Assembly (NCBI GenBank): GCA_013824615.1 | Contig: PNOC01000033.1 | Coordinates: 1-38,704 of the forward strand | Direction of reading: 5' to 3' | DNA length: 38,704 bases | From: Thermodesulfovibrio sp. | GTDB lineage: Bacteria; Nitrospirota; Thermodesulfovibrionia; Thermodesulfovibrionales; UBA6898 | Part shown: positions 7,930 through 28,244 of the stretch, piece after piece | Layout: each line of letters opens with the position of its first letter | How positions within the stretch are numbered: the first letter of the stretch is position 1 | Program-made: the position numbers and the translations under genes | The notes under the pieces: generated by a model | The model's input: only the letters and a program-made list of their open reading frames with translations | The model's database searches: none | What the model was told of the DNA's origin: nothing

Positions 7930-7938
7930 AGGTAAGCC

Positions 7939-8529: not shown

Positions 8530-8599
8530 TGCCAAAGCCGAGTGGCGATTAATATAACATTGAGCGAAATTGAAGTTTATTCACATAACGGAGGACGTA

Positions 8600-10773: not shown

Positions 10774-13700
10774 ATGACCGCTAAAGATAGTATATTGCAG
10801 GACTGGAAACAGACCCTGCCGCTTTTTGTCGCGCTGATTGTGGCGGGAATTGCCGGCAATTATTACAGCTATGAGCTCTTCTTTAGTATTCAGTTCATCT
10901 TTGGCAGCATATTCGCAATGCTTGCTCTGCAGTTGCTGGGGCTCCGCTATGGAGTCCTTGCTGCCGCGCTGATCAGCAGCATAACCTGGCAGCTCTGGAA
11001 CCATCCCTATGCGATTATTATTATGACCGGCGAAGTCCTGTTTGCCGGCCTTCTGACGCAGCGCCGGAAGAATATCGGTATCGTTGAGGCTGACGCAATC
11101 TACTGGGTCTGTATCGGCATGCCTCTCGTTTACTTTTTTTACTATGTCGTCATGCATGTTTCCACAAGCAATGCCACAATCACGATGCTGAAACAGGCGG
11201 TAAACGGCATAGCGAATGTCCTGACAGCGCGGCTTATCTTTATTGCAGTGCCTTCCCGTTTCAAACAAAGCACGTATTCCCTTCAAGAACTCATGTTCAA
11301 TATCATGGTTTTTTTCGTGCTGATAGCCTCACTCCTGCTGCTGACCGTCCAAAGCAGGAAAGAACTGGCCGAGGCCGACCGCTCGATTCGCGGGTCGCTG
11401 GGTTTTGCACTAGAACGCGTCTCAGGCAATGTTGAGAAGTGGCTCCGCTCGAACCTGCATATGATCGAGTATCTTGCCAGGGAGTCAGAAAAGCAGCCTA
11501 TGGCACGGATGCAGCAGATCATTGCGCTGACCGTTGACACGCACCGCGACTTGTCCAGGATCGGCATTATGGACAGGAATGCTGTCAGTCGTGCCTATGC
11601 CCCGCCGGTTGACGAACTGGGGCGTTCGAATATAGGAAAGAGCTTTGCAGACCGTGATTACCTTCCCGCCTTGAAGCAGACGCTCAGGCCGATGCTCTCC
11701 GAGATCATGACAGGAAGAGTCGGGGTCCCCGGTCCTGTGGCGGCCCTCCTCGTCCCGATTGTTTTGCAGGGGGAATATGCCGGCTATGTCGGAGGCATTC
11801 TCAACCTGCAGGGGTTGCAGACGCTCATTGCACTGAATGCAAAGGGCCAGATGATTCAGGGGCTCCTCTTTACGCTTGTCGACCGCCATGGCAGGATTAT
11901 TGTTACCAATCGTGAGGATATGAAGGTGATGGATGCCTTTATCCGCGAGCCGGGAGAGCTTAAACAGTTGGAGAACGGCATCGTTCAGTGGCTTCCGTCG
12001 GGAAATAATAATATATCGGTTTCGGACCGGTGGAAGAACTCTTATTACGTCGCCGAAAACAGGATCGGCAATCTCTCCGAGTGGAGGCTGATCCTCGATA
12101 TGCCGATTGCTCCCCTGCAGAAGAAGCTCTTCGAAAAATATGCGGCCTATTTCGGAGAAGTCTTTGTCCTTATTCTAGTGGCCCTTCTGCTTGCCCGGCT
12201 TCTGAGCCACAAACTGGTCTCATCTTTGCAGGAACTCGGGACTGTGTCCGCGGATATCCCTTCAAAACTTTTGACCAGTGAGGAGATTACCTGGCCCAAA
12301 AGTAATATTGTCGAAACGCAGCACCTTATTGATAATTTCATGGAGATGTCCCTGGCCCTGATGCACCAGTTCAAGGAAATCAGAAATTTGAACCAGGAAC
12401 TGGAGGCGCGGGTCAATGAAAGGACCAGGAAACTTCAGGAGAGTGAGACGCGCTTCCGGGCGCAATATCGCTGGCTTCCCGTGCCCACCTATACCTGGAA
12501 AAAAGAGGGTGACGACTTCATCCTCATCGACTGCAACGCGGCGGCCGAGACGATATCGGAAGGTAAGATCAGTGAGTATTTCGGCAGCAGGGCTGGCTTG
12601 TTTTACCAGGACCGTCCGGATATTGTGGATGATATTCGGGCGTGTCATCATCAGCAGGAACACATTGGGCGGAAGATGACGTATACGCTCAGGTCCACAG
12701 GAGAGGTAAAGGACTTTTCGGTGGATTATGTCTTCGTGCCGCCTGACATGGTGATGGTGCATACAGAGGATATCACGGAGAGGAACAAGGCAGAGGAGCA
12801 GCTGCGGCGGAGCGAGCAGCTGCTGAAGGATGTGACCTCGAATCTGGGTGTCGGCGTGTATGTCTTCGATGATCGGGGGAAGATCACCTTCATGAATCCG
12901 ATGGCTGAATATCTCTGGGGATGGACAAAAGAAGAATTGAACGAGAAGGGTGCGCATGCCGTAGTCCATTACCTGAGGCCGGATGGCACTCCTCTGCCTC
13001 TTGAGGAATGCAGGATGCATGGCGTCATTACCGGCAAAACCGCGTATATTTCCTCGGATGAGGTTTTTGTGCGGAGGGACGGGACCATTTTTCCCGTGTC
13101 GGTGATCAGCACTCCTTTGATAAAGGAAGAAGCCGTTATCGGTTCTATTACTGCCTTCAGGGATATTACCGAGGACAAAAGGATGGAGGAGGAGGTCCGC
13201 AAGGCACAGAAGCTGGAATCTGTCGGAGTTCTTGCCGGGGGCATTGCCCATGATTTCAACAACCTTCTGACCGGGATCATGGGGAATATCTCTCTCGGGA
13301 AGATATTTCTCTCCGAAGGAAAACCGGAAAGGGTAGCCGCACTGCTGAACAGTGCAGAGGAGGCGTCGGAGGCGGCCAAAGAACTGAGCTTCAGACTGCT
13401 GACCTTCTCAAAAGGCGGTGATCCCATACGAACGTTATCGTCAATCGAAGGCCTGCTGAAAAGGTCTGCGGCCCTTGCTCTGAGCGGCTCCAATGTGGCC
13501 GCCACCTTTGTCCTTGAGCCCTGCATCCGCCCTGTCGAGATGGACGAAGGACAGATGCTCCAGGTCTTCAACAATATTATCCTCAATGCGAAAGAGGCCA
13601 TGCCTCAGGGCGGCACGATAACGATCACTGCAGAGAATGCCACGGTGCCGGGTGGAGATGCTGCATCACTCAAGAAGGGACTGTATACAAAGATATCGAT

Positions 13701-14331
13701 AAGGGACACCGGCTGCGGTATACCCAGGCTGAACCTCGACAGGATCTTTGACCCTTACTTCTCGACAAAGGGCCTGGGAAGCCGGAAGGGTACCGGACTC
13801 GGCCTTTCTATATGCATGTCGGTGATCAAAAAGCATGAAGGTCATATCACTGTTGAGTCACGGGAGGGGGAAGGAACGACCTTCAATATCTGGCTTCCGC
13901 TGCCCGCAGAAGATCATCAAATGAGCGAAACCGGATTCGCGAAAATACAGCCTGCAGCAAGAAAGATCCTGTTCATGGATGACGATGAAAGAATCAGGAG
14001 TCTTGTTTGCACCATGATGGAATTTCTCGCCTATGACATCTCGTTTGCAGTCAGCGGAGAGGAGGCGATCGAAATTTACACAAACACAAAAGTTTCAGGA
14101 ATCTGCTTTGACCTTGTGATTCTGGACCTGACCGTACCGGGCGGCATGGGAGGAGAGCAGACTGTACAGAGGCTGCTTGAAATAGACCCGGGGGTTAAGG
14201 CAGTCATCTCGAGCGGCTATGCGGACAGTCCTGTACTCCAGCACTACAGGGAGTATGGTTTCGTTGACGCGATTGCAAAGCCGTACCGGATAGAGCATCT
14301 GAAGGCTCTGTTCGATAAACTGTTTCCCTGA
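10774..14331 (+). CDS. Membrane-bound hybrid sensor histidine kinase with C-terminal receiver
   Basis: 1185 aa. The N-terminus holds several transmembrane helices (about 15-160), another at about 172-193, an extracytoplasmic sensor region of Cache type (about 195-455) and a further helix near 456-475. A coiled linker (NLNQELEARVNERTRKLQES) leads to two PAS domains (about 555-665 and 680-800). The kinase core has the H-box AGGIAHDFNNLLTGI with the phosphorylated His at about residue 826, an ATPase domain with N-box (NNIILNAKEAMPQGG), G1 (DTGCGIP) and G2 (GTGLGLSI), and a receiver domain (acidic patch MDDDER near 1068, phospho-Asp near 1118 in ILDLTVPG, conserved K in IAKPY). No DNA-binding output domain is attached, so it needs a partner regulator or works through phosphorelay. 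The signal is unknown. The octaheme cytochrome gene follows and could be a target. Confidence 0.93.
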   Translation: MTAKDSILQDWKQTLPLFVALIVAGIAGNYYSYELFFSIQFIFGSIFAMLALQLLGLRYGVLAAALISSITWQLWNHPYAIIIMTGEVLFAGLLTQRRKNIGIVEADAIYWVCIGMPLVYFFYYVVMHVSTSNATITMLKQAVNGIANVLTARLIFIAVPSRFKQSTYSLQELMFNIMVFFVLIASLLLLTVQSRKELAEADRSIRGSLGFALERVSGNVEKWLRSNLHMIEYLARESEKQPMARMQQIIALTVDTHRDLSRIGIMDRNAVSRAYAPPVDELGRSNIGKSFADRDYLPALKQTLRPMLSEIMTGRVGVPGPVAALLVPIVLQGEYAGYVGGILNLQGLQTLIALNAKGQMIQGLLFTLVDRHGRIIVTNREDMKVMDAFIREPGELKQLENGIVQWLPSGNNNISVSDRWKNSYYVAENRIGNLSEWRLILDMPIAPLQKKLFEKYAAYFGEVFVLILVALLLARLLSHKLVSSLQELGTVSADIPSKLLTSEEITWPKSNIVETQHLIDNFMEMSLALMHQFKEIRNLNQELEARVNERTRKLQESETRFRAQYRWLPVPTYTWKKEGDDFILIDCNAAAETISEGKISEYFGSRAGLFYQDRPDIVDDIRACHHQQEHIGRKMTYTLRSTGEVKDFSVDYVFVPPDMVMVHTEDITERNKAEEQLRRSEQLLKDVTSNLGVGVYVFDDRGKITFMNPMAEYLWGWTKEELNEKGAHAVVHYLRPDGTPLPLEECRMHGVITGKTAYISSDEVFVRRDGTIFPVSVISTPLIKEEAVIGSITAFRDITEDKRMEEEVRKAQKLESVGVLAGGIAHDFNNLLTGIMGNISLGKIFLSEGKPERVAALLNSAEEASEAAKELSFRLLTFSKGGDPIRTLSSIEGLLKRSAALALSGSNVAATFVLEPCIRPVEMDEGQMLQVFNNIILNAKEAMPQGGTITITAENATVPGGDAASLKKGLYTKISIRDTGCGIPRLNLDRIFDPYFSTKGLGSRKGTGLGLSICMSVIKKHEGHITVESREGEGTTFNIWLPLPAEDHQMSETGFAKIQPAARKILFMDDDERIRSLVCTMMEFLAYDISFAVSGEEAIEIYTNTKVSGICFDLVILDLTVPGGMGGEQTVQRLLEIDPGVKAVISSGYADSPVLQHYREYGFVDAIAKPYRIEHLKALFDKLFP

Positions 14332-14546: not shown

Positions 14547-15413
14547 ATGAAGGGGAAAGTAACTGTTCTATTCCTATTGTTGGTAGCCAGCATCATCGTG
14601 GCGGGTCTCTTGGTGTGTGACACCCCGGCAGATGCTTCAGCAAAGAACAGGAACCGGAAAAAGGCCCACAGGGAATGTGTGGTCTGCCATATATCGAATA
14701 CCCCCGGGGCCGACGTGTCGCTCTTTCCTGAGGGGGCTGAGCCCTCGCTCGTCTGCCTTGATTGCCATAACTATACCAACAGTCATCACCCGATCGGGTT
14801 TGTTCCGGACCGGCCACTTTTCAGCGAGGATGACGAAAACCCCCTGCCTTTGTATAACAATGAGATCCGCTGTTTGACCTGCCACCAGATACACCCGGAA
14901 AATAGAACGCGCAAACTCCTGCGCGGCGGTCCCTATGCCGACAGAAGAGAGATATGCATGAAGTGCCACTATGATGAACAGTACGCGGCCATTGACCCGC
15001 ATGTGATGCTCGACAGCAACTATCAGATCAAAGAGGTGAACGGGGCGCCTGTCTGTGTTATCTGCCATACTGCCGTACCTGAGCAGGAGGGTGTTGCCAG
15101 CAAAGTGAATTTCAAGGCAGAGATAGCCTTCCTCTGCTGGAGATGCCACCCGCCCATGCCGGATACATTTTTTAAACAGCATTTTCTGGTACGGCCTTCT
15201 CTGTCGACGCTTGAGGTGATGAGGCGCACTGAGAGCGAAAAAGGTATCAGTTTTCCCCTGTTGAACCGGGGCAGGGTAACCTGCTCAACCTGTCATAACC
15301 CGCATCAGAAGGGTGTGATAGAGTTCGGTCCGGCAAGGGCCGGTGAAGACGAGCATGATAAGCTCCGCATGCCGCCGAACGAAATCTGCAGCGGCTGCCA
15401 TGATAGAAAATAG
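14547..15413 (+). CDS. Periplasmic octaheme c-type cytochrome
   Basis: 288 aa with an N-terminal hydrophobic segment (residues 5-23) that is a signal peptide or anchor. Eight CXXCH haem-binding motifs start at residues 44, 70, 109, 137, 170, 197, 246 and 281. Extra histidines (e.g. NSHHP, CHQIHP, NPHQ) can act as distal ligands. Motif forms such as CSTCHNPH and CLTCHQIHP are typical of NrfA-unrelated multihaem electron carriers of the doubled-CXXCH type. There is no catalytic lysine motif such as CXXCK, so a transfer role is more likely than nitrite or hydroxylamine catalysis. GGGAGGTAG precedes the start. The gene appears to be monocistronic and follows the hybrid kinase by 215 bases. Confidence 0.9.
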   Translation: MKGKVTVLFLLLVASIIVAGLLVCDTPADASAKNRNRKKAHRECVVCHISNTPGADVSLFPEGAEPSLVCLDCHNYTNSHHPIGFVPDRPLFSEDDENPLPLYNNEIRCLTCHQIHPENRTRKLLRGGPYADRREICMKCHYDEQYAAIDPHVMLDSNYQIKEVNGAPVCVICHTAVPEQEGVASKVNFKAEIAFLCWRCHPPMPDTFFKQHFLVRPSLSTLEVMRRTESEKGISFPLLNRGRVTCSTCHNPHQKGVIEFGPARAGEDEHDKLRMPPNEICSGCHDRK

Positions 15414-15483: not shown

Positions 15484-17937
15484 TTATACCGGACTCCTTG
15501 TCTTCACGTATGTAAAGACAAGGAGTCCGGTTGTAACTAGCAGCCCTGCATAAAAAAGTATCAAGGCGATTTTGTAATGTCGGGGATCGAACACAAGCCG
15601 CACCTCATGTTTTCCCTGCGGGAGGAGAATGGATTTTGAATTGTAGTTCGAGATCATTATTGGAAGCTCCTTTTCCCCATCGTACGCTCTCCAGTATCGG
15701 CTCCAGCCGTCGGTATACTGCAGATAGCCCTCAACTCTGTTTTCGATTGAGATCTCAATATCATTTATCGAAACGCTTCTGATCCTGAGCGTTGAGTTAT
15801 CATTCGAAAGCAGTTGTGCTGTATCTTTACGGACTGCTGCCATAAGGGGGAGGAGACCGTTGTATGCTTCTGTAATGCGGTCATTGTTAAACCAAGGCAC
15901 GTCCTGAAAATCGCCGAGATTGAACTCTGCACGAGGCGTATAGATAACTTTGCCGGGTTCCTCGAGATAGATAAATTCGTCAAAGGATCGCACATCGCCA
16001 TGGACGAAATAATCGAACAGCTCCCGTCTGTGGTTGAGCTTTACGCCGTACTGCAGAGGGAAAAAACGGATGACCGGATAGATGAGCCCATTGATCCGGG
16101 CCTGCTGCTCTGGTGGCAGGAGACTGAACAAATCATAATACCTCTTTGTGGTGAATATGCTGCTAAGGACATTGCTGATAAAGGCTCCCTTTGTCTCGGC
16201 AATAATTTCATTGAATCCTGCAGAGGGTATCAGATCCATCGGTACGTAAGGGAGTCGGTAAAGTTCTGTGCCGTCAAAGAACCGCGCAGGACGGTAAAGA
16301 ACCTCATCCCGCTCATCTGTTGCCAGGGTCAGGAAGCGATGCATAGGCTCAGCAGACGGCAGTTGTCTGGTTTTTCTAACGCCAAATGCGGACTGATCCA
16401 GAATCGAAATCAGGACCAGCACCCCCAGCACGATTTCGAACCGGACTAGGCGATACCTGAGGAGGCAGAGGCCTCCAATAACAGCAAAAGGCAGCAGCAG
16501 GGCAACTGCGTCGTGGCGGGATACGAAGAGGGCATTGTCCGAGTAGCAGCTGGTGATGATCATTTTTACAGCCGAAGGCAGCAGACAAAGCAGCAGCAGA
16601 AGTACAAAAGCGGCCCGGCTGAGCGATGTCAGGGCATGACGATGCTTCATGAGAGCGGACACTCCCAGGCAGTAGAACAGGCAGAGGTAAAAGGAGATGA
16701 GCGAAGCGAAGTTCAACCGGGTATCCAGCATGCGGAGCGGCGGGAACATGAGGTTCATGAATTTCTGGAGGGGGTTGTAGTTGCTGTAGACGTCTGAGAA
16801 GCTGAAGCAGCCGACCAGGACAAGGCCCGCCAGGAGCAGAAAGGGAAAGGCCAGGGACGATCTGCCGCGGAAAAATGCCGCGCCTAGAAGAATCAGCGGG
16901 ATTATCCCCATATAGAGGGGGACTACCGGTGGATTGTCAGTCCCGCTCCTGTAGCGGACCCCGGTGAGGTCGGGATAGAGAAGACTGAGTGCGCTGCCAT
17001 AGGAGAGGAAGGTGCCGCTGTCCTTCCTGAGCCTGTCGAAAAAAAGATCTCCTCCGAACTCTGTCGCCATCATCTGTTTGAGCCTGAAGTGATTGCTGTC
17101 CAGAAGTTTTGCAACAGCAAACAGCTCCCCATCCGCTGCCGTGTCGAGCAGATAGACGGAGAGCGGCGGCGCTGTCATCATGACTGTCAGGAGAATGCAA
17201 AGGAGTGTAAGCAAGAGAAACTTTCTGCTCCGGATTGCCGGGAGAAGCTGCTTCAGGCTGTAACGGCGGGAGATAAACAGGATGAGCAGAAAAAAGAATA
17301 TGTTGAAAAGATAGAGGGACGGGATAAAGACATTCATCGTAATCCCGGTGATAAGTGTCAGGCTCAGAAGGTAAAGATACCGGCGCTGCGTATCAATCGT
17401 ATCGAGCAGCAGGAGGATACAATAGAGGGCCAATGGGACGGTGAAGCAGTAGTCCATCATCGGCTGGGACGTATTCTGCTGGGTGACTGTAAACAAGAGC
17501 ACCCCGGCAGCAATCAGCGCAGCCAGGCTGTTTTTAGCTATATAGCGGTACAGGAGAAAGGCTCCGGCGATGAAGACGGCTATGCGATAAAGCCTGAAAA
17601 CGATAAACAGCGGATACGGCAGAACATGAAACAGTTTTGCAATACCGGTCAGGAGGAGACAGACAGGGTCAAGCAGACCGTACCCGGAGATGTTGGGATA
17701 AAAATATGTTCCCATCAGTGAATAGGGGTCCCAGTAAGGGAATATTCCCTGCTTCATATGTTCGATATAATAATGAAACGTTCCGTACCAGACGGAAGCA
17801 TCGCCGCTGAATGCTTTTTTCCCGGCAATCAGTTCGAAGTACGTGATGCCATAGAGGATGCTTAAGGCCAGGACAAGGAGAACTGCTGCCTTTGAGCCGT
17901 GGTTTGCTGATGCTTGGTCGGGGGGCGACGAATGCAT
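15484..17937 (-). CDS. YfhO-like multi-spanning membrane glycosyltransferase (GT-C type)
   Basis: An 817-aa integral membrane protein. The start at 17937 is chosen because it follows the methyltransferase stop by 13 bases with AGG in front; the longer form would overlap that gene. The N-terminus has one helix, then an extracytoplasmic loop with acidic and aromatic residues (FSGDASVWYGTFHYYIEHMK, then PYWDPYSLMGTYF) as in YfhO and other GT-C enzymes, where an Asp in this loop is catalytic. About 11-13 more helices follow, then a roughly 270-residue soluble C-terminal region and a last helix (IALILFYAGLLVTTGLLVF). Known YfhO proteins transfer a sugar from a polyprenyl-phosphate carrier made by a CsbB-type GT2 to an outer acceptor. 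A matching GT2 begins this operon. The acceptor is unknown. The last codons form half of a long palindrome. Confidence 0.8.
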   Translation of the reverse strand: MHSSPPDQASANHGSKAAVLLVLALSILYGITYFELIAGKKAFSGDASVWYGTFHYYIEHMKQGIFPYWDPYSLMGTYFYPNISGYGLLDPVCLLLTGIAKLFHVLPYPLFIVFRLYRIAVFIAGAFLLYRYIAKNSLAALIAAGVLLFTVTQQNTSQPMMDYCFTVPLALYCILLLLDTIDTQRRYLYLLSLTLITGITMNVFIPSLYLFNIFFFLLILFISRRYSLKQLLPAIRSRKFLLLTLLCILLTVMMTAPPLSVYLLDTAADGELFAVAKLLDSNHFRLKQMMATEFGGDLFFDRLRKDSGTFLSYGSALSLLYPDLTGVRYRSGTDNPPVVPLYMGIIPLILLGAAFFRGRSSLAFPFLLLAGLVLVGCFSFSDVYSNYNPLQKFMNLMFPPLRMLDTRLNFASLISFYLCLFYCLGVSALMKHRHALTSLSRAAFVLLLLLCLLPSAVKMIITSCYSDNALFVSRHDAVALLLPFAVIGGLCLLRYRLVRFEIVLGVLVLISILDQSAFGVRKTRQLPSAEPMHRFLTLATDERDEVLYRPARFFDGTELYRLPYVPMDLIPSAGFNEIIAETKGAFISNVLSSIFTTKRYYDLFSLLPPEQQARINGLIYPVIRFFPLQYGVKLNHRRELFDYFVHGDVRSFDEFIYLEEPGKVIYTPRAEFNLGDFQDVPWFNNDRITEAYNGLLPLMAAVRKDTAQLLSNDNSTLRIRSVSINDIEISIENRVEGYLQYTDGWSRYWRAYDGEKELPIMISNYNSKSILLPQGKHEVRLVFDPRHYKIALILFYAGLLVTTGLLVFTYVKTRSPV
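15488..15531. repeat. 17-bp perfect inverted repeat at the 3' end of the YfhO-like gene
   Basis: Arms at 15488-15504 (ACCGGACTCCTTGTCTT) and 15515-15531 are exact reverse complements with a 10-base loop. One arm encodes the last residues of the membrane protein (KTRSPV, stop). No T-run follows on either strand, so it may act as a Rho-type or bidirectional terminator between convergent genes, or as an mRNA-protecting hairpin. Confidence 0.8.
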
Positions 17938-17950
17938 GATTGTCCTGCGG

Positions 17951-18700
17951 TTACCTCTTCCTGGCCGTGGCAAACAGAGAGAGGCCGAACGGCAGTGCGT
18001 ATCCCTGAGCCAGCCTGTTTTCGAGCAGATGGAAGCGCCGGAGGAGATTGTTTAGCAGGGCCGGAGGCATAACCACATCTGATTTCTGCATCTCCTTTGC
18101 GTCGCGGCTGGCATGCAGTTTGTTCAGCAGACGGTACAGAGCGATCGGGAGGAACAAGGCTGTTATCCGGTGCGTCATATGCTCTACCCGGAACCCCGCT
18201 GTCTGCAGCAGCGAAGAAAGCTGTTTCCCCGTGTAGCGTCGCGCCGTGTGGACAGCCAGATCATGGCTGCTTTTCAGCCAGTTATACGCAGGGACCTGCA
18301 TCACCAGCAGTCCGTCACTGCGCAGGGCGCGATGAAACTTGCCAAGTACCGCGGAATCATCCCCGATCTGTTTATGATAAATAACATCCATTGAGGTAAT
18401 GACATCAAAGCATTCAACGCCAAGGTCAATACTGTTGAGGTCAGCCTGGAAGATATCCTGCAGCCCCCTGCGGTGGCATAGTGCTACAGCAAGGTCCGAG
18501 ATATCGCAGCCGCTGACAAACCCCAGCGCTCCCATAAGTTCACAGGCGCGCCCGGTGCCGCAACCGGCGTCGAAGATCTTCAGTTCCGGTTTTATTTTCT
18601 TCTCCTGTATGATCTGCTGCAGCAGGAAATCGTGCAGAGCAGCGTACCACCAGTGTTTATCTTCCATGCTGAAAAGCCGGAAATATTCTTCCTTGTTCAT
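17951..18700 (-). CDS. Class I SAM-dependent methyltransferase of the glycan cassette
   Basis: 249 aa. The N-terminus (EDKHWWYAALHDFL) is typical of glycan-cluster methyltransferases. The SAM-binding motif I is IFDAGCGTGRACELM near residue 42. Later motifs include the acidic residue after beta-2 (GCDISDLAV), FDVITSMDVIYH (motif II/post-I) and LRSDGLLVMQVPAYNWL. A hydrophobic segment near residues 185-195 and a positively charged C-terminus suggest loose membrane association. It starts 10 bases after the aminotransferase stop with GGAG in front. In context it could methylate the amino group or a hydroxyl of the deoxy sugar, as N-methyltransferases do in antibiotic sugar pathways, or act on the lipid-linked product. 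The substrate is not determined by sequence. Confidence 0.8.
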   Translation of the reverse strand: MNKEEYFRLFSMEDKHWWYAALHDFLLQQIIQEKKIKPELKIFDAGCGTGRACELMGALGFVSGCDISDLAVALCHRRGLQDIFQADLNSIDLGVECFDVITSMDVIYHKQIGDDSAVLGKFHRALRSDGLLVMQVPAYNWLKSSHDLAVHTARRYTGKQLSSLLQTAGFRVEHMTHRITALFLPIALYRLLNKLHASRDAKEMQKSDVVMPPALLNNLLRRFHLLENRLAQGYALPFGLSLFATARKR

Positions 18701-18710
18701 GCCTGCTCCG

Positions 18711-19823
18711 TCAGGATTTCCGTGCAGCGAAAAAGTTCTTAATAGTCATGACAACGCACGCAATGCTGTCCTCCGAAAGTCCCGGGTAAAGCGGGAGAGA
18801 AAGTATGCGTTCTGCCAGCATTTCAGTTACCGGCAAGGCCCCGGGTTTATAGCCGAGGAAGTTATACCCCCGCATGAGATGTACCGGTACCGGGTAATTG
18901 ATGCGGGTTTCAATGCCGTGATCCTGCAGGTACTGCCTCAGGCCATCCCGTTGTGCCGTCTTGATCGTGTAGGCATAAAACTGGTGTGTACGGTCAGGTC
19001 TGACCAGTGGCAGTTCCAGATCTCCGACCCCGGCCAAGGCAGCTGAGTAATCTGCTGCGACAGCCTGGCGAAGCAGCCCATACTCTTTGACGCGCGGAAG
19101 CAGGAAGTTGAGTATTGCTGCCTGGACCTCATCAAGCCTTGAATTGTAACCCTCTTCTTCTGCATAGTAAGCCCCCTCCATGCCATAGAACCTCAGACGC
19201 CGCAGGTGCGCATGGAGCTCCGGCCGGCTTGTCACGGCCATACCTGCGTCTCCGTAGGCACCCAGAACCTTTGTGGGATAAAATGAAAAAGCCCCTATAT
19301 CTCCGATGCTGCCGGCAGCTTTGCCTCTGTAGCGTGCCCCTGTCGCCTGCGCACAGTCTTCGAGCACCGGCAGGCTGTTTCTGTTTGCGATTTCACATAA
19401 GGGGTCCATATCGACCGGCTGACCGAAGAGATGCACCGGGATTATACATCGTGTTTTTTCAGTAACAGCCGCGTCAACCTGTGAGACATTCATAAGAAAG
19501 GTGTCGGGCTCGACATCGACGAATACCGGCAGTGCCCCCGTTGCGCGGATTGCAGCGATGGTCGGCACAGCGGTGTTCGCGACGGTAATAACCTCATCGC
19601 CGGATGATACGCCAAGGGCCCTGAGAGACAGAAAAAGCGCATCAGTTCCGGAATTGACGCCGACGCCGCAAGCCACGCCGCAGAGGCCGGCAAAGTTTTT
19701 TTCAAAGGCTGCAACCTCACTTCCCAGAATGAGGTTGCCTGACGAGAAGACGCGGTCGACAACGGCCAGGATCTCTTTCCGCAGGGGCTCGTACTCGTGA
19801 AGGTACTGCCAGTACCGGATCAT
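18711..19823 (-). CDS. DegT/DnrJ/EryC1-family PLP-dependent sugar aminotransferase
   Basis: 370 aa from an ATG at 19823; a TTG 24 bases upstream is in frame but would overlap the preceding gene. Family signatures are clear: EYEPLRKEILAVVDRVFSSG at the N-terminus, GVNSGTDALFLSLRALG, VFVDVEPDTFLMN, VLEDCAQATGARYRGK with the Asp and Gln that hold PLP, and SFYPTKVLGAYGDAGM with the Schiff-base lysine. Sequence style is that of NDP-sugar 3-aminotransferases (FdtB/DesV/EvaB group), which aminate a 3-keto-6-deoxy sugar. This fits the upstream 2,3-dehydratase genes, whose product bears a C-3 ketone. Expected product: an NDP-3-amino-2,3,6-trideoxy-4-keto-hexose. The position specificity is inferred from context. 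Confidence 0.9.
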   Translation of the reverse strand: MIRYWQYLHEYEPLRKEILAVVDRVFSSGNLILGSEVAAFEKNFAGLCGVACGVGVNSGTDALFLSLRALGVSSGDEVITVANTAVPTIAAIRATGALPVFVDVEPDTFLMNVSQVDAAVTEKTRCIIPVHLFGQPVDMDPLCEIANRNSLPVLEDCAQATGARYRGKAAGSIGDIGAFSFYPTKVLGAYGDAGMAVTSRPELHAHLRRLRFYGMEGAYYAEEEGYNSRLDEVQAAILNFLLPRVKEYGLLRQAVAADYSAALAGVGDLELPLVRPDRTHQFYAYTIKTAQRDGLRQYLQDHGIETRINYPVPVHLMRGYNFLGYKPGALPVTEMLAERILSLPLYPGLSEDSIACVVMTIKNFFAARKS

Positions 19824-19839
19824 GCCTGCGGCCTTATAC

Positions 19840-20619
19840 TCATACAAGACATGCCAGGATACTCCGGGCAGCGGAATTTACCGAATCTCCGAGATGCAGA
19901 AAAAAGCGGATCTGGCCGAGTGAAAACCAGCGGTACTGTGCCGGGATGCTCAGGGTCTGTCCGTCAGGGAGCAGCAGTATTTTATGCAGATGCTCCTCCT
20001 TGTAGAACCTGCCTCCTTCTTCTGCCTGCATGCTCTCCTGTATGGTCACCAGTCCCTCACTTTTCAGAATCATATCAAAGAGAAACGGTTTTTTCAGCTT
20101 TTCATTGTCGATATAATTGCCGGGATTAAACTGGACCGTCGGGCCGACCTGAACAATATTGCGGTTGCCGGCATCGACCTTGGCCTGCATGAGAAAATAT
20201 AGCCTGCCTTCAACCCGCTTTATCAGCAGCCCGATGATTCCCGTCCCTTCATTATCCAGAATCGGCTGACTCCACGAATTGACTTCCCTGGCCGGGGAGG
20301 TGGTCTTCACGCCGATGATCCTGAAAAATTTATTCTGCCTGTGGGAAAAAAAGCCGTCCTCATTCCGCTTCCATTCTTCCAGAGTGTTGAGACCTTCTCG
20401 CTTTGCAAAGATGTGGTTGTTTGCCCTTTCGTCATCGAGCCACTGAATAAGCTCTTTTATAGAGTGCAGTTCAGGCTTTCCCTCAAAACAGCCGGACAAC
20501 TGCTCTAACTTCAGCTCCATTCTGATTCTGGCATCCATGCCAGCATCCGCAGTCAGTATCCTGTCGAGGAGCAGATCTCTCCGTTGTGCAGCTGAATGGC
20601 CTTTTTTTATAGCAGGCAT
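19840..20619 (-). CDS. NDP-hexose 2,3-dehydratase half, second repeat unit (subunit B)
   Basis: 259 aa, one repeat of the NDP-hexose 2,3-dehydratase family (EvaA/TylX3/Gra-orf27 type). Seen: FFRIIGVKTTS, WSQPILDNEGTGIIGLLIKRVEGRLYFLMQAK, VQVGPTVQFNPGNY and an end SAARSILACLV. Characterised enzymes are single chains of about 450-480 aa with two such repeats. Here the first repeat is a separate gene just upstream, and the two overlap by 13 bases in different frames. No Shine-Dalgarno is visible, which points to translational coupling. The ATG is followed by a run of seven A residues. The pair removes the C-2 hydroxyl of NDP-4-keto-6-deoxyglucose to give a 3,4-diketo-2,6-dideoxy intermediate. 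Probably an obligate heterodimer with the product of 20607-21398. Confidence 0.85.
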   Translation of the reverse strand: MPAIKKGHSAAQRRDLLLDRILTADAGMDARIRMELKLEQLSGCFEGKPELHSIKELIQWLDDERANNHIFAKREGLNTLEEWKRNEDGFFSHRQNKFFRIIGVKTTSPAREVNSWSQPILDNEGTGIIGLLIKRVEGRLYFLMQAKVDAGNRNIVQVGPTVQFNPGNYIDNEKLKKPFLFDMILKSEGLVTIQESMQAEEGGRFYKEEHLHKILLLPDGQTLSIPAQYRWFSLGQIRFFLHLGDSVNSAARSILACLV

Positions 20620-21398
20620 GCCAGGACGCTTCGTGCGCAGGAATTGATGAGATTATCACGGCGGATCAGGCCGGCCACCTGCCGCAGGGTGAGCCATATG
20701 AATTCATCCGGCAGCACCGGCAGTTTGCTCTCCTCAACCGAGATAACCATATTTTTGTTCAATTTGTAGAGAAAGCGGCCCCCGTCTTCGGGCTGGAGCT
20801 TTGAAAAGAGTATCCGGTCTTTCGGAGGGTTGAGAAAATGCTCGATGCAGGGCGGCAGGGCGCCCCCGTGGGCCTGCGTATAGTTGCTGTAGGTCGCCTG
20901 AACCGTGGGTGCAAGCTGGATCAGGTTTATATTACCCGGTTCCTCCTTTGCCTGCAGGCAAAAATGAAGCACGCCGCAGAACTTTGCTGCCAGGATCCCC
21001 AATATCCCCACCTCGGGCTGATCGATAATCGGCTGGTCCCAGGTTATCTCATCGGACGTCGAACGATGCCGCACCCTCAGGCCGGTGATGCTGAAGAACC
21101 TGCCCGAGTCGTGAGCAAGGTTCCCGGTTGACGGGTCCATATGCCACCTGTCTATCCTGTCAAGGGGGATGACCTCTGCCTCCAATTTTGGATGGGCCAG
21201 GTAGTAACTGATTCTGTTGTCTACCTCGGCATCAGTGTGGAGAGCAATGTTAACCGTCCGTGATACAAAAAGGTCAAAGAGTACATCCGTGCTGTAGCTG
21301 AATCCACTACAGCCGGTGCCGTGCCCGTTGAGCAGCCCAAATTCCAGGAGTCTTTTTCTGAGGGACTCGACTTCCCCGGCAGCAGTATTACTGTCCAT
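20607..21398 (-). CDS. NDP-hexose 2,3-dehydratase half, first repeat unit (subunit A)
   Basis: 263 aa, the companion half of the dehydratase. It shows the same order of motifs as its partner: FFSITGLRVRHRS, WDQPIIDQPEVGILGILAAKFCGVLHFCLQAK, IQLAPTVQATYSNY and an end SCARSVLACLL. The two proteins align along almost their whole length, so both repeats are complete and neither looks decayed. The ATG overlaps the stop of the GT2 gene by 11 bases. An N-terminal extension of about 80 residues (with FSYSTDVLFDLFVSRTVNI) corresponds to the N-terminal cap of single-chain enzymes. The stop lies 13 bases inside the next gene. A sequencing frameshift in a single gene is possible but unlikely, because a sensible start and stop both exist. 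Confidence 0.85.
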   Translation of the reverse strand: MDSNTAAGEVESLRKRLLEFGLLNGHGTGCSGFSYSTDVLFDLFVSRTVNIALHTDAEVDNRISYYLAHPKLEAEVIPLDRIDRWHMDPSTGNLAHDSGRFFSITGLRVRHRSTSDEITWDQPIIDQPEVGILGILAAKFCGVLHFCLQAKEEPGNINLIQLAPTVQATYSNYTQAHGGALPPCIEHFLNPPKDRILFSKLQPEDGGRFLYKLNKNMVISVEESKLPVLPDEFIWLTLRQVAGLIRRDNLINSCARSVLACLL

Positions 21399-22368
21399 AG
21401 CCCTGTCTCTGAGTTCTGATGAGCGTCAGGACCCCGGTCTTCTGGGGGGAGGTGAGGACTTCCCGTATAACAAACTGCGGGTCCTTGTGCAGCAACTGGT
21501 ATATTCTTCCGACATATTCCCCGAGAATGCTGATGGCAAGCAGGACGAGTCCTCTAAAAAAAAGGTTGGCTGACATGAGCGTTTCGAAATCCGTCAGTTC
21601 AGAGGAAACATTATACGTGTCATAGGTTTTGTACAGTCCATACACCAGCGCAAAAATAATCAGAAGCGTTCCTGCTATGCCCGCCAGCCTCAGAGGGAAA
21701 AGCGAAAAACTGACAACCATATTCCCCCAGAGAGAGACCAGCTTTGCCATGGTGTACCCGGAGCTGCTGTATGAGCGCTCCCGGTGTAGCACCGAGACAG
21801 TGCCAATACTGGAGGTTGTCCTCACAATTATACCGTCTATATAGGGATTGGGGTTGTCATGTTTGATGATTTCGCTGACAAGAAAACGATTGATTACCTT
21901 GAAGCTCGAGAGGTACAGGTTTTTAGGCTTTCTGAGGAGAAGTGTGGCAATGGAATCATTGAACCTGCTTCCGGCCCTTCTGAAGAGGCTGTCTTTTTTT
22001 GACGGATAATAGGTATAGACCACGTCGTACCCCTTCTGTATCTCTTCAATCAGTTTACCTACTTCTTCAGGGGGATTTTGCAGGTCATCGTCCATCATGA
22101 CACAATAGTCGCCGCTGACATAGTTAAGACCTGCCATTAAGGCATTATGCTCACCGAAGTTTCTGGGAAGTACGACATAAGTTATTATGCCCGGATGGTC
22201 GCTATGGAGCTTCCTGCAGATACTGTCGGTATCATCGCTGCTGTAGTCGTTGACAAGAATTATTTCAAGATCATAGTTGCGGGAGTAGAGCGACAGCAAA
22301 GACCCGCAGAGGAGTGCTATCGTGTTCTCCGCATTATAAACAGGGATAAGTATTGATACTTTGTGCAT
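21388..22368 (-). CDS. Polyprenyl-phosphate glycosyltransferase, GT2 family (GtrB/CsbB/ArnC-like)
   Basis: 326 aa. The GT-A domain starts VSILIPVYNAENTIALL, continues IILVNDYSSDDT and LPRNFGEHNALMAGLNYVSGDYCVMMDDDLQNPPEE (the DDD metal/nucleotide site near residue 93), and ends before two C-terminal transmembrane helices (about 229-250 and 264-288) carrying the ILGEYVGRIYQ signature. This is the layout of GtrB, CsbB and ArnC, which transfer a sugar from a nucleotide to undecaprenyl phosphate at the inner face of the membrane. GGAGG stands 6 bases before the ATG. It is the first gene of the cassette and overlaps the dehydratase gene downstream. It probably loads the deoxy-amino sugar made by the next genes. 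Confidence 0.9.
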   Translation of the reverse strand: MHKVSILIPVYNAENTIALLCGSLLSLYSRNYDLEIILVNDYSSDDTDSICRKLHSDHPGIITYVVLPRNFGEHNALMAGLNYVSGDYCVMMDDDLQNPPEEVGKLIEEIQKGYDVVYTYYPSKKDSLFRRAGSRFNDSIATLLLRKPKNLYLSSFKVINRFLVSEIIKHDNPNPYIDGIIVRTTSSIGTVSVLHRERSYSSSGYTMAKLVSLWGNMVVSFSLFPLRLAGIAGTLLIIFALVYGLYKTYDTYNVSSELTDFETLMSANLFFRGLVLLAISILGEYVGRIYQLLHKDPQFVIREVLTSPQKTGVLTLIRTQRQGYGQ

Positions 22369-23073: not shown

Positions 23074-23718
23074 TCAACCCTTCCGGATGCTGACTCCCTG
23101 GTAGCTTCCGGTCAGTTCGGCTTTAAGAGGGGCAAAGCCTCCGGCGCCGTTGGCGCGGATAACCACACGCCTGCGGCCGGAATGGACTTTCTCATAAGAG
23201 GTCATAATGCCCTGGAGGTTGAAGCCGTGTTTTCTGATGATATCTGCAACCTCTCTGATGGAGCCGGGGCGGTCATCGACTGTCAGGCAGATCCGGTGGC
23301 CTCCGTGCCGCACACCCGTGATGTCAATCAGCGCACGGAAAATGTCCCGGTCGGAGATGATGCCGACGATGCGGCCTTCCTCCATGACCGGGAGACAGCC
23401 GATATTCCTGTCAAAGAGGAGCATCGCGGCTTCCTCAACAGGTGTATCTGAGGCAACGGTGACGACGCCGCCCTTCATGATATCTTTTATTTTGGCTTTT
23501 GCCAGAATATAATGAAGCTCATAAACGTCGAGCGCGGTAGCGCAGGAGGGTGAATAGTCCCTGATATCGCGGTCGGAGACAATTCCCTTCAGCTTGTCAT
23601 CTTTGACGACCGGAATATGCCTGATTTTTTTTGAGCGCATCAGGGTCATGGCTTCGGTTACACTGCTGTCGGGTGCAACGGTAAAAACCTTTCTTGTCAT
23701 CCAGTCTGAAACGAACAT
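23074..23718 (-). CDS. acuB: CBS-CBS-ACT regulatory protein (AcuB-like)
   Basis: 214 aa. The start at 23718 is fixed by GGAGGTAACATA directly before ATG. Two CBS motifs are clear: MFVSDWMTRKVFTVAPDSSV...IRHIPVVKDDKLKGIVSDRDI and IKDIMKGGVVTVASDTPV...IGCLPVMEEGRIVGIISDRDI. A C-terminal ACT domain follows (ICLTVDDRPGSIREVADIIRKHGFNLQGIMTS). AcuB-type proteins have this layout; CBS pairs bind adenine nucleotides and ACT domains usually bind amino acids. It follows livF by 16 bases and is the last gene of the liv operon, so a regulatory role tied to branched-chain amino acid uptake or use is reasonable. A link to acetoin use is not supported here. Confidence 0.88.
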   Translation of the reverse strand: MFVSDWMTRKVFTVAPDSSVTEAMTLMRSKKIRHIPVVKDDKLKGIVSDRDIRDYSPSCATALDVYELHYILAKAKIKDIMKGGVVTVASDTPVEEAAMLLFDRNIGCLPVMEEGRIVGIISDRDIFRALIDITGVRHGGHRICLTVDDRPGSIREVADIIRKHGFNLQGIMTSYEKVHSGRRRVVIRANGAGGFAPLKAELTGSYQGVSIRKG

Positions 23719-23734
23719 TATGTTACCTCCATCG

Positions 23735-24463
23735 TTATACTCCCAGATATGCCTTTCTGACATGCTCGTCATCCAGCAGTGCTTCGCCGGTGCCTTCGAG
23801 CACAATTTTCCCTGTTTCCAGCACATAGGCCCGGTCGGCCACGGCAAGGGTCTGCTTGACGTTCTGCTCTACAATCATGACCGTAACGCCTTCACCGCGT
23901 ATTTTTTTTATGACGTTGAAAATTTCCCTGACCAGGATAGGTGCAAGGCCAAGAGAAGGTTCGTCAAACATGATCAGCGAGGGCAGGGACATCAGGCCTC
24001 TGCCGATCGCCACCATCTGCTGCTCGCCGCCGCTAAGTGTTCCGGCTATCTGTTTCCGTCGCTCCTTCAGCCTTGGGAACAGGTCAAAGACCATCTCTTT
24101 GGTGTTGCTTCTGCCTGCCCTGGCCGCTCCCTTTAACGAGCCCATATCCAGATTTTCTTCAACCGTCATTTCGACGAAGAGCCGCCGTGCCTCCGGTACA
24201 TGGGCCAGGCCAGCCTCCACCATGCTGTAGGCCTTCCGCGTATGGATTGGCTGGCTGTCAAAAAAAATCTCGCCGCCGGCCGGCCTGATAATCCCTGAGA
24301 TCGTTTTGAGTATGGTCGATTTCCCGGCCCCGTTGGCGCCGATCAGGGCCACGACCTCTCCTTTGGCAACGGAAAACGAGACGTCCCAGATTACCTGGAC
24401 ATCACCATAAAAAACATTCAGATGCTGTATATCAAGCATTATATTAGGCATTACATCAGGCAT
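23735..24463 (-). CDS. livF: Branched-chain amino acid ABC transporter, ATPase LivF
   Basis: About 242 aa. Walker A GANGAGKST (after VVALI), Q-loop, signature LSGGEQQM, Walker B LIMFDEPSLGLAP and the switch His in VMIVEQNV are all present, and the length and IKTISGIIRP-like spacing are typical of LivF. Several ATGs are possible; 24463 is chosen because GCGAGG lies 6 bases upstream, giving an 8-base overlap with livG. One of the two cytoplasmic ATPases of the high-affinity Leu/Ile/Val importer. Confidence 0.93.
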   Translation of the reverse strand: MPDVMPNIMLDIQHLNVFYGDVQVIWDVSFSVAKGEVVALIGANGAGKSTILKTISGIIRPAGGEIFFDSQPIHTRKAYSMVEAGLAHVPEARRLFVEMTVEENLDMGSLKGAARAGRSNTKEMVFDLFPRLKERRKQIAGTLSGGEQQMVAIGRGLMSLPSLIMFDEPSLGLAPILVREIFNVIKKIRGEGVTVMIVEQNVKQTLAVADRAYVLETGKIVLEGTGEALLDDEHVRKAYLGV

Positions 24464-25178
24464 TTTGGGCCTCGCCAAGATATGCCTCGACCACGAGGGG
24501 ATTGCCCCTGATTTCCTCAGGAGTGCCTTCAGCGATCTTCTGGCCGTAGTTCAGCACCACAATCTTGTCGGATATCGACATAATGACCTTCATATGGTGT
24601 TCGATAATCATGATGGTTATGCCTGCCTCCTTGATGTTCCGGATGATCTCAATGGATTCGTTCAGTTCAGTCGGGTTGAGTCCGGCGAAGGACTCGTCGA
24701 GGAGGATCATTTCAGGTCCGGTTGCTAGTGCGCGTGCAATTTCGAGTTTCTTTCTTTTTCCGAGCGGAAGCCCTTTCGAGATGATGTCGCGGTCATCATA
24801 GAGGCCGGTGAACTTCAGTGTCTCGATAGCCTTTGCCTCAGCCACAGCTCGCGAGTGCGTCCTCAAATAGGCCGAGGCGATTACGTTGTCCAGCACGGAC
24901 ATGCGCTGAAGCGGTTTGACGACCTGGAAGGTCCTTGCTATTCCCCGTATGCAGATCTTGTGCGGCTTGAGGCCGGAGATCTTCTGCTGATTAAACAGGA
25001 CCTCTCCTTGTGAAGGGCTGTAGAATCCGTTGACGACATTAAAAAGCGTGGTCTTGCCTGCACCGTTCGGGCCTATCAGCCCGAGGATCTCCCCCTTATT
25101 GACGGAGAAGGAGATATCGGTCAGGGCTGCAAGACCGCCGAAGAACCGTGAGACATTCTTTATCTCAAGCATGGCCAT
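24456..25178 (-). CDS. livG: Branched-chain amino acid ABC transporter, ATPase LivG
   Basis: 240 aa. Walker A GPNGAGKTT, an extended insert with IARTFQVVKPLQRMSVLDNV typical of LivG, then a degenerate signature (PLGKRKKLEIARAL), Walker B MILLDESFAGLNP and the switch His in MIIEHHM. The Walker B glutamate is followed by Ser (DESF), as is common in LivG. Its ATG overlaps the stop of livM by one base. It pairs with LivF to energise the LivHM channel. Confidence 0.94.
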   Translation of the reverse strand: MAMLEIKNVSRFFGGLAALTDISFSVNKGEILGLIGPNGAGKTTLFNVVNGFYSPSQGEVLFNQQKISGLKPHKICIRGIARTFQVVKPLQRMSVLDNVIASAYLRTHSRAVAEAKAIETLKFTGLYDDRDIISKGLPLGKRKKLEIARALATGPEMILLDESFAGLNPTELNESIEIIRNIKEAGITIMIIEHHMKVIMSISDKIVVLNYGQKIAEGTPEEIRGNPLVVEAYLGEAQNA

Positions 25179-26116
25179 TATGCAGCCTTGCCTTTTCCGA
25201 AGAGCCTTTTGAGTTTCGGCAGGTCGCCGGTAATACCGTTTGGAAGATAAATAATGATCACAATGAGCAGTACTCCGAAAAAGGTATGGTGGGCCGCGCC
25301 GAGTTTCGGTATGGACCGGATGATTTCAGCAAGGAAGACCATGATGATGGCGCCGACAAGGGGTCCCCAGTAGGTTGCTACCCCGCCGACCATCACCACC
25401 ATGATCGTGACGATAGAGATGTCGTGCAGGGCAAAGACGATCTTGGGATCAATATATCCCATGTAGTTGGTGTAAAAAACTCCGGCCAGACCGGTAAGCA
25501 CGGCGCTCAGGGTGAGCGCAATGGTCTTATAAAAGGTTGTATTGATGCCCAGGGACTCTGCCGCATCCTGGTCTTCCCTGATCGCCACAAAATAATATCC
25601 AAGTTTTGATTCGATCACTTTTTTGACAATAAAGAAAGAGACGATGGCAATAAGCAGGATGATATAGAAGTACCAGGTTTTATCGATCCAGGTCCGCTCC
25701 CTGATCATGATGCCGAGGTCGCCTTCAGTAATGGTGGTGAGGTTCTCGGCCGTAACCCTGAGGATAACCCCCATGGCAAGAGTTCCCAGGGCAAAGAAGG
25801 GCCCTTTCAGCCGCAGGCAGATGTAGCCGATCAGCAGGGCAAAGAGGGCGACCACGATAACGCTGAGCGGCATACCCCACCAGGCAGAGACCCCGGTCTT
25901 ATTATAGAGTATGCCGGCAGTATAGGCGCCGACACCAAAGAAGGCTGCATGACCAAAGGAGACCTGGCCGCAGTAACCGCCCAGAAGGTTCCAGGCCATG
26001 CCGATGACGGACCACATGAGCACCAGGATCAGAATATGCATCCAGTAAGAGCTCAGGCCGATCAGGGGCAGCAGGGCGAGGATGCCGGCAATGAATAGCG
26101 GAAGCGTTTTTTTCAC
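25178..26116 (-). CDS. livM: Branched-chain amino acid ABC transporter permease LivM
   Basis: 312 aa with about nine hydrophobic helices and the family motif GQVSFGHAAFFGVGAYTAG, followed by the EAA-type loop REDQDAAESLGINTTFYKTIALTLSA. The start is GTG at 26116, overlapping the livH stop by four bases (GTGA). The C-terminal tail (LPKLKRLFGKGKAA) is basic and cytoplasmic. It forms the transmembrane pore with LivH. Confidence 0.95.
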   Translation of the reverse strand: MKKTLPLFIAGILALLPLIGLSSYWMHILILVLMWSVIGMAWNLLGGYCGQVSFGHAAFFGVGAYTAGILYNKTGVSAWWGMPLSVIVVALFALLIGYICLRLKGPFFALGTLAMGVILRVTAENLTTITEGDLGIMIRERTWIDKTWYFYIILLIAIVSFFIVKKVIESKLGYYFVAIREDQDAAESLGINTTFYKTIALTLSAVLTGLAGVFYTNYMGYIDPKIVFALHDISIVTIMVVMVGGVATYWGPLVGAIIMVFLAEIIRSIPKLGAAHHTFFGVLLIVIIIYLPNGITGDLPKLKRLFGKGKAA

Positions 26117-27042
26117 TTGCCGAACCTCTTGCGTGTGAACAGAGACATAATGCCCTGGGGAACAAAGATGAGTGCCGCGAGAAAAATGACGAACCTGCCG
26201 ACCGGTGCCCAGCCCATGCCTGCATAGGTCGAGGTGAGGGACTCAAAAACGCCGAGAATCAGGCCGCCGACAATAGCGCCCACGGTCGAGCCCAGACCGC
26301 CGAGGATGGTTATGACAAAGGCCGTGAGCGTGAACTGACCGCCCAGGTCAGGGTACAGATAGTAGATAGGGATGAAGAGGCAGCCGGCAGAGCCGACGAG
26401 GGCAGAGCCGAGGCCAAACGTAACCACCCGCATCCTCTCTACATTGACTCCCATGAGCAACGCGGCGTCCTTATCCTGCGCCGTGGCCCTGATCGACTTG
26501 CCCATATCGGTTTTGGTGAGGAAGAACCAGAGGGCCCCGGTAATCATCAGGGCAAAACTGAAAGAGACCGACCACGGCAGAGAGAGCGACAGTTCAATAG
26601 GTGAGGCCTTCCATATATCGGAGAGATACCATGCCTTGGTCGCGTAATCCACCGGGGTGGTCTTGTAGTCTGAAGAGAAGATGATCGTGGCGATATTCGA
26701 CAGCACCATGCCGATGCCGACGGTCAGGATGACCTGGTTCTCCGGAATAATTGCGTCGACCTTCAGCACGGGATTGATCAGGTATTTCTGCAGCAGAATC
26801 CCGAGCAGAAACAGCGCCGGAGCTGCTATAAAAATCGAGAGATACGGGTCGATATGAAAGACTGAAAAGAGGACATAGGCAATATACATACCGACCATCA
26901 TCAACTCCCCGTGAGCAAGATTGATGATCTTCATGACGCCCATGATAAGGGTCATGCCGATGCCGATCAGGGCATACAGGCCTCCCAGAAGGAGGCCTGA
27001 CAGGATCGTCTGGAGAAGGACTTCAACCTGGGGGGCCGTCAT
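26113..27042 (-). CDS. livH: Branched-chain amino acid ABC transporter permease LivH
   Basis: 309 aa, with the typical N-terminus LLQTILSGLLLGGLYALIGIGMTLIMGVMKIINLAHGELMM, about eight membrane helices and the coupling loop GKSIRATAQDKDAALLMGVNVERMR. GGGAGG precedes the ATG by a few bases. It starts 11 bases after the substrate-binding protein gene and overlaps livM, so transcription and translation are coupled. Confidence 0.95.
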   Translation of the reverse strand: MTAPQVEVLLQTILSGLLLGGLYALIGIGMTLIMGVMKIINLAHGELMMVGMYIAYVLFSVFHIDPYLSIFIAAPALFLLGILLQKYLINPVLKVDAIIPENQVILTVGIGMVLSNIATIIFSSDYKTTPVDYATKAWYLSDIWKASPIELSLSLPWSVSFSFALMITGALWFFLTKTDMGKSIRATAQDKDAALLMGVNVERMRVVTFGLGSALVGSAGCLFIPIYYLYPDLGGQFTLTAFVITILGGLGSTVGAIVGGLILGVFESLTSTYAGMGWAPVGRFVIFLAALIFVPQGIMSLFTRKRFGK

Positions 27043-27053
27043 GGGAGGCCTCC

Positions 27054-28244
27054 CTACCTTCTTTCTCTCCAGGTCGGGACCGGGTAGACATATTTCTTGC
27101 TGGCGTATTTCTCGGGCCAGATTGTTTCGTGCTCTCCCTTGATCACCTGCAGGACAAAGGTGTCTGTAAAATTCTGATTCTGATACCCTTCCTTGTCCTC
27201 AAACTTGACAGGGCCGAAGGCGGTCATGGTATTCGAGGCCTTGAGTGCCGCGCGTATGCCCTCCTGGGTCCAGTCCTTTGCCCTCTCAAGCGCATCTTTC
27301 ACCACATAGAGCGCAGAGTACGCAGAGGCCCCGTGGTAGGACGGGTAGTCTTTGTACTTGGCCTTGTATTTTTCGGAATATTCTTTTGCGCCGGGATACT
27401 TGAGCTGGGACGTCCAGAGAGTTGCCGTGATCACATTTTCGGCCGCATCTTTTGCATTGTCAATGAACTCCGGGATTGCAAAGCCTGCTGCGCCGCCTGC
27501 AAAGAGCTTCGCCTCGAGCCTGAGTTCCTTGATCTGTTTCATAAGGAGCGAGGCATCCATGACATAGGAGACCATATAGACGACATCAGCCTGTGTGGCC
27601 TTGACCTTGGAGAGCAGGGGCTTGAAGTCTACGGAGCCTGCCTCATATTTTTCCTTCAGCAATACCTTAATGCCGGCCTTTGCCGCGTCTTTGGCCATGG
27701 CCTCTGCGCCCGAGGTGCCGAAGGCTGAACTTTCATAGAGTATCACCATGGTCTTCGGCTTTACGACCTTCGCGAGAAAGTCAATAACTGCATCGCTGTA
27801 ATGCGCATTCACCGGGTTCTGGCGGAAGACATATTTATAGTTCTTCTGGGTTATATCATCGTCGGCGCTTGCAACGATCAGGTAGGGGGTTTTCCGCTCT
27901 TCAGCAACCGCGGCCACTGCCTTGGCACAGGCAGAGGTATATTCTCCGACAATAATCGGCTGTTTCTTTGTATCGATCAGTTTTTCAACAATGGCCCGGG
28001 CTGTCTCGGGTTTTGCCCCTGAGTCTTCGAAGGAAAGATGCAGCTTCTTTTTCTTGATGCCGCCCTTTGCGTTGATCTCCTCTGCTGCTATTTCGTAGGA
28101 CCTCTTCATCATCTCCCCGAACTTGGCCTGCTTGCCGGTCAGCGGCAGGGGGATGGCCAGGTCAAAGGTGTCTGCAGCAAAAAGGGGTGAACCTGAAAAA
28201 GCGGTGAGACAGATGGCAAGGACAATAATCGATAAACGTTTCAT
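27054..28244 (-). CDS. livK: Branched-chain amino acid ABC transporter, periplasmic binding protein (LivK-like)
   Basis: 396 aa with a signal peptide (MKRLSIIVLAICLTAFSGSPLFAA). The mature protein has the type I periplasmic binding fold: FDLAIPLPLTGKQAKFGEMMKRSYEIAAEEINAKGG at the start, VGEYTSACAKAVAAVAEE, then a second lobe (VVKPKTMVILYESSAFGTSGAEAM). It captures the ligand for LivHMGF. First gene of the operon, with GGAGG before the ATG and a good promoter. The ligand may be Leu/Ile/Val or another amide or amino acid; this family has been recruited for many substrates, so specificity is not certain. Confidence 0.92.
   Translation of the reverse strand: MKRLSIIVLAICLTAFSGSPLFAADTFDLAIPLPLTGKQAKFGEMMKRSYEIAAEEINAKGGIKKKKLHLSFEDSGAKPETARAIVEKLIDTKKQPIIVGEYTSACAKAVAAVAEERKTPYLIVASADDDITQKNYKYVFRQNPVNAHYSDAVIDFLAKVVKPKTMVILYESSAFGTSGAEAMAKDAAKAGIKVLLKEKYEAGSVDFKPLLSKVKATQADVVYMVSYVMDASLLMKQIKELRLEAKLFAGGAAGFAIPEFIDNAKDAAENVITATLWTSQLKYPGAKEYSEKYKAKYKDYPSYHGASAYSALYVVKDALERAKDWTQEGIRAALKASNTMTAFGPVKFEDKEGYQNQNFTDTFVLQVIKGEHETIWPEKYASKKYVYPVPTWRERR

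Follow-up and report, generated by a model that had tools for sequence, protein, structure and literature searches.

Can an NDP-hexose 2,3-dehydratase of the EvaA type be divided between two genes? EvaA, a single chain, has been treated as the sole well-characterised 2,3-dehydratase of its type; its pocket A is the active site, where E139 and E190 are needed, mutants of pocket B remain active, and the second pocket has been interpreted as a remnant of gene duplication (PMC8987622). In the window, by which we mean the entire 38,704-nucleotide stretch of Thermodesulfovibrio sp. DNA that was analysed, the initial annotation had described a 2,3-dehydratase as two genes, here A and B, each full length, similar to each other and overlapping by 13 bases in different frames (Table 1). 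No published description of a split 2,3-dehydratase was found in the literature searched, in which subscription journals were thinly covered.

Table 1. Genes and other features of the window, in order of position.
Feature	Position	Strand	Remarks
Three consecutive genes resembling NADH-binding, iron-sulfur and molybdopterin/2Fe-2S subunits (NuoF/NuoG-like or hydrogenase-type electron-transfer complex)	5590-10654	plus	
PAS hybrid histidine kinase	10774-14331	plus	after the electron-transfer genes
Multihaem cytochrome	14547-15413	plus	after the electron-transfer genes
829-aa membrane protein	15484..17973	minus	about 14-15 hydrophobic segments; no clear Pfam family
Class I SAM methyltransferase	17951..18700	minus	PF13489/PF08241; same operon; syntenic
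DegT/DnrJ/EryC1 sugar aminotransferase	18711..19847	minus	PF01041, 348.8 bits; directly 3' of B; start TTG 19847 or ATG 19823
Gene B, second-half (C-type) 2,3-dehydratase subunit, predicted structural or accessory	19840..20619	minus	259 aa; PF03559
Overlap of A and B, 13 bases	20607..20619	minus	B's ATG within A's final codons; A's stop TAA includes the start of the A7 run
Gene A, first-half (N-type) NDP-hexose 2,3-dehydratase subunit, predicted catalytic	20607..21398	minus	263 aa; PF03559
GT2 glycosyltransferase, ArnC-like (undecaprenyl-phosphate sugar transferase)	21388..22368	minus	PF00535; PRK10714-like, 169 bits, below cut-off; syntenic in relatives
Liv-type ABC transporter operon (ATPases, permeases, binding protein)	23074-28244	minus	last gene encodes a CBS-ACT protein

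The open reading frames and their family matches bear this description out. Both proteins exceed the curated PF03559 cut-off of 25 bits over the full profile, A at 232.8 bits (positions 3-203 of 203) and B at 204.6 bits (positions 2-203 of 203), and they align with each other at 29% identity across 212 aa (E 2e-31). The overlap (ATGCCTGCTATAA) places B in the -1 frame relative to A: the 3' end of A reads ...GCA TGC CTG CTA TAA AAA AAG, and the 5' end of B reads ATG CCT GCT ATA AAA AAA. Both repeat types of PF03559 EvaA-type enzymes, the first and the second, are present, one per gene, on separate reading frames with a conserved internal start and not on a single polypeptide. Because the one-chain arrangement is a trait of the characterised members that the family model does not need, we rank A and B as a variant and not as an ordinary member. 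They are the only 2,3-dehydratase matches in their own genome, where no further copies were found. The two-gene 2,3-dehydratase is a genuine, conserved variant of a known enzyme family, and its split is old.

We examined how the gene is distributed among relatives. The family is present in 14/396 Nitrospirota genomes, nine with split and five with fused genes; the class was searched whole (230 genomes). Within the genus and family, all genomes with the dehydratase encode it in two genes (G002, G003, G004, G012, G013), and G121, from another family, has the same split. A scan of 84,980 species genomes, using patterns biased to this subfamily, yielded 52 loci. Those outside Nitrospirota were all fused, their hosts being mostly Geobacterales, along with actinobacteria, Cloacimonadota, Chloroflexota, Azonexaceae, one Aenigmatarchaeota and one Parcubacteria record. 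The fused gene has a length of 475-532 aa in Geobacterales and in the other Nitrospirota. No single-domain form was found outside Nitrospirota, where the wider scan was biased to this subfamily; the two plasmid records with one match that were checked, from Serratia and Hoeflea, were rejected as such forms, their genes being of fused length (440 and 426 aa). Nor was any locus with just one half found. Both arrangements occur in one operon slot within genus g105, where G104 (L017/L036) has a fused 524-aa frame and G122 (L019/L035) has split frames of 308 and 264 aa. The fused clade I dehydratase of one Nitrospirota genome, L015 (G341), groups with the Aenigmatarchaeota and Parcubacteria records (L058, L059) at 99-100% support, which suggests lateral transfer or a binning error.

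The junction itself was compared across the split loci. In 7/7 split loci of the lineage, the window included, B's ATG sits at precisely the same place, 13 bases back from where A's stop codon ends. For an ATG at -13, a codon for Ser or Ala with A as its third base is required, and in these genes only a minority of such codons (4-9 of 23-33 Ser/Ala codons) are of that kind. Since synonymous sites are near saturation between most pairs of split loci, the retention of the ATG-forming base suggests selection for the start. The other split junctions have an ATG at +7 (G122) or, in G171, halves in one frame separated by TGA and followed by an SD-like AAGGAG and an ATG at +18. With only that TGA between its halves, the G171 locus (L016, 727-2298, minus strand) looks one stop codon short of fused.

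These comparisons bear on whether the split is real at all. A run of seven As sits at the junction, and the initial annotation had raised a one-base error near it, restoring a single frame, as a way in which a normally fused gene could appear split by faulty sequencing or assembly. The run itself cannot hide such an error, because it starts inside A's TAA and any change in the number of As (two or more) keeps this stop in frame and gives no fusion. The companion possibility, that the relatives are all fused, does not apply, as genus and family relatives are split too. That seven genomes, each assembled separately and with synonymous sites near saturation, have an identical junction, and that the junctions of two further split loci differ, also stands against an artefact. 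We therefore rejected this reading on the frame logic at the A7 run and the conservation in relatives, and give it next to no weight. Could one polypeptide instead be made by programmed -1 frameshifting within the overlap? B does lie in the -1 frame of A, and in the window its frame extends open some 46 bases 5' of A's stop. However, no X XXY YYZ heptamer was seen by eye in A's frame ahead of the stop, and B has its own conserved ATG. No shared signal fits the junctions of G171, with a plain stop between halves in the same frame, and G122, in the other frame. With no slippery site seen and junctions that differ among lineages, programmed frameshifting was rejected as extremely unlikely.

How A and B relate to the known enzyme was judged from EvaA of Amycolatopsis orientalis (PDB 4j7g/4j7h), the only solved family member found. 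EvaA carries both repeats, of Nudix fold, in one 471-aa chain as opposed to the two genes here, and A and B each match both repeats. A scores 188 bits against repeat 1 and 103 bits against repeat 2, whereas B scores 95.5 bits against repeat 2 and 89.6 bits against repeat 1. The alignment to EvaA, which the initial annotation had proposed, thus places A nearer repeat 1 and B slightly nearer repeat 2. TylX3, Gra27, OleV, UrdS and SpnO (named in PMC8987622) share the enzyme class, judged by family, but belong to antibiotic deoxysugar pathways of actinomycetes. Further likenesses are the fused enzymes of Geobacterales and Nitrospirota (e.g. L036, L034 and Geotalea L037), which share clade II, the operon neighbours, and the halves and their order with the window locus. 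They differ from it in having the halves joined by a 19-54-residue linker.

Equivalents of EvaA's repeat-1 catalytic pair, E139 and E190, are present in A and in 57/57 N-halves. B retains the E190 equivalent and has D or E at the E139 position, so that B might itself bind ligand or act. Several other residues invariant in N-halves (Q127, E129, H177, K212 and N216 of window A) are absent from clade II second halves, window B included. Among these B-type halves, 56 columns are conserved at the level of at least 95%, and 15 of these are nearly absent from N-halves; the second half of the actinobacterial enzymes is, in contrast, more variable. Because second halves have a different and equally conserved signature of their own, B is neither decaying nor interchangeable with A. 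Where dN/dS was estimable, it was 0.08-0.17 for A and about 0.09-0.10 for B, values which indicate that B is under purifying selection.

The EvaA-like fold was judged from a model of B and a model of the fused relative L036. Modelled alone, B gave a pLDDT of 87.7 and superposed on EvaA 4j7h with a Z of 19.0 (3.5 Å over 223 residues). The L036 model (pLDDT 88.0, pTM 0.88) superposed on EvaA across both domains, with 430 residues at 2.2 Å and a Z of 47.8, and its low-confidence linker at 279-308 is where the split falls. Several Nudix hydrolases align to the same model (L036:3914-5470) across a range from residue about 71 to 518, yet with only about 155 residues aligned, a hint that first-half strands may pack against the core formed by the second half.

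To place the split in time, we examined two trees. In a paralogue-rooted tree built from 94 halves, first and second halves separate completely into two clades (97/96); A belongs to the N-half clade and B to the C-half clade. As A and B fall on their respective sides, the internal duplication is older than any split found. In a tree of joined halves rooted on clade I, clade I contains fused forms only, and in clade II the split forms branch off first. G171 does so with weak support (87/50), followed by seven split species (94/82), and the fused forms are nested above together with split G122 (96/93).

Two further explanations have to be set against these data. A and B might be separate enzymes, acting as homodimers on different sugars or steps and adjacent only because they share a pathway. 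B's own conserved pocket, including the E190 equivalent, and the confidence with which B folds alone as a model are in keeping with this. Yet in all relatives without the split a single chain contains both halves, and in clade II that chain is encoded in the same operon slot; the fused relative keeps the EvaA domain arrangement, and a lone half was found at no locus. We regard two separate enzymes as quite improbable. The other explanation concerns origin and was raised in the initial annotation, namely that the halves stayed separate after the old duplication and that later, independent fusions produced the fused forms of clade I (actinobacteria and others) and those of clade II. The tree permits this: with split forms basal and fused forms nested in clade II, two fusions plus one fission equal three fissions in number of steps. 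However, the placing of G171 is weak, and the eight basal split forms may make up a single clade (not rejected, p 0.21), in which case two fissions are enough and the count favours fission (2 vs 3 steps). All nine split forms as one clade are disfavoured (p 0.03). The uniformly fused clade I and the absence of single-domain forms among the loci found outside Nitrospirota, where the two single-match plasmid genes proved to be of fused length, also count against an unfused ancestor, which we consider unlikely though still credible. We take two or more fissions of a fused gene as the most likely origin of the split. A broader version of the ancestral idea, to which we assign a low probability, would make the Nitrospirota two-gene form the surviving unfused state after the founding duplication and an obligate heteromer. 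B would be a specialised regulatory or substrate-holding subunit and not a dead remnant, and the EvaA-type fused enzymes of antibiotic pathways would be later, independent fusions.

We consider it probable that A and B are two subunits of one EvaA-type 2,3-dehydratase, with A catalytic and B a required partner. From what is directly observed, namely two genes, their homology, conservation, synteny and selection, we infer the complex, the subunit roles, the substrate and the product. The heterodimer is supported indirectly, because fused homologues occupy the same slot, the signatures of the halves are not interchangeable and a fused relative models onto EvaA. A and then B would be translated in turn from one mRNA, probably by translational coupling, with B's start inside the end of A. 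The two proteins would assemble into a two-domain Nudix-fold unit like the single chain of the fused enzymes, and this unit probably dimerises as (A.B)2. A, with the catalytic pocket, would take the C2 hydroxyl off dTDP-4-keto-6-deoxyglucose to give the 3,4-diketo-2,6-dideoxy sugar, and the complex would need B, with its diverged second pocket, in order to fold or take its shape. The B and DegT reading frames do not have a strong Shine-Dalgarno sequence, and this we count against the explanation.

The neighbouring genes suggest a pathway for the pair. On the minus strand the order is GT2, A, B, DegT aminotransferase, methyltransferase and the 829-aa membrane protein, and the GT2 gene and the start of A overlap by 11 bases. 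In Geobacterales and in G104/G113 the gene that follows GT2 and precedes the DegT and methyltransferase genes is the fused dehydratase; in the window this operon slot is taken by A and B, so the pair replaces the fused enzyme. RmlB, the maker of the substrate, is encoded at another locus of the genome (472 bits, over cut-off). Solved relatives of the DegT aminotransferase include 2oga Transaminase and 3frk QdtB. A homologue of the 829-aa membrane protein follows the methyltransferase in L039, and this protein is possibly a candidate GT-C-like transferase of the operon.

Pathways to 2,6-dideoxysugars are expected to include a 3-ketoreductase partner. In EvaA-EvaB pathways the diketo product is aminated directly. 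Many relatives encode a Gfo/Idh oxidoreductase between the dehydratase and the aminotransferase (Pfam-checked at L036:5471-6484 and L038:5350-6357), which is probably that partner. No such gene lies between B and DegT in the window, in the window's lineage or in some Geomonas-type loci, and a search of the window's own genome for a Gfo/Idh ketoreductase elsewhere gave only weak matches (50 and 37 bits). This absence suggests a different sugar product. By analogy with EvaA-EvaB pathways, the next step is likely to be direct DegT amination of the diketo product, probably at C3, to a 3-amino-2,3,6-trideoxyhexose, which would then be methylated. The GT2 enzyme has two predicted C-terminal TM segments (218-247 and 263-283). 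Its resemblance to ArnC-type polyprenyl-phosphate sugar transferases speaks for a surface glycan, and not for an antibiotic; GT2 would pass the modified sugar to polyprenyl phosphate.

A separate and strictly conserved gene for the second half of an EvaA-type enzyme means that this half is kept by selection. The natural two-gene form would let the role of the second half be tested by including or omitting one subunit. With both the split and the fused version at the same operon position in a single genus, the system also offers a small model of gene fission and fusion.
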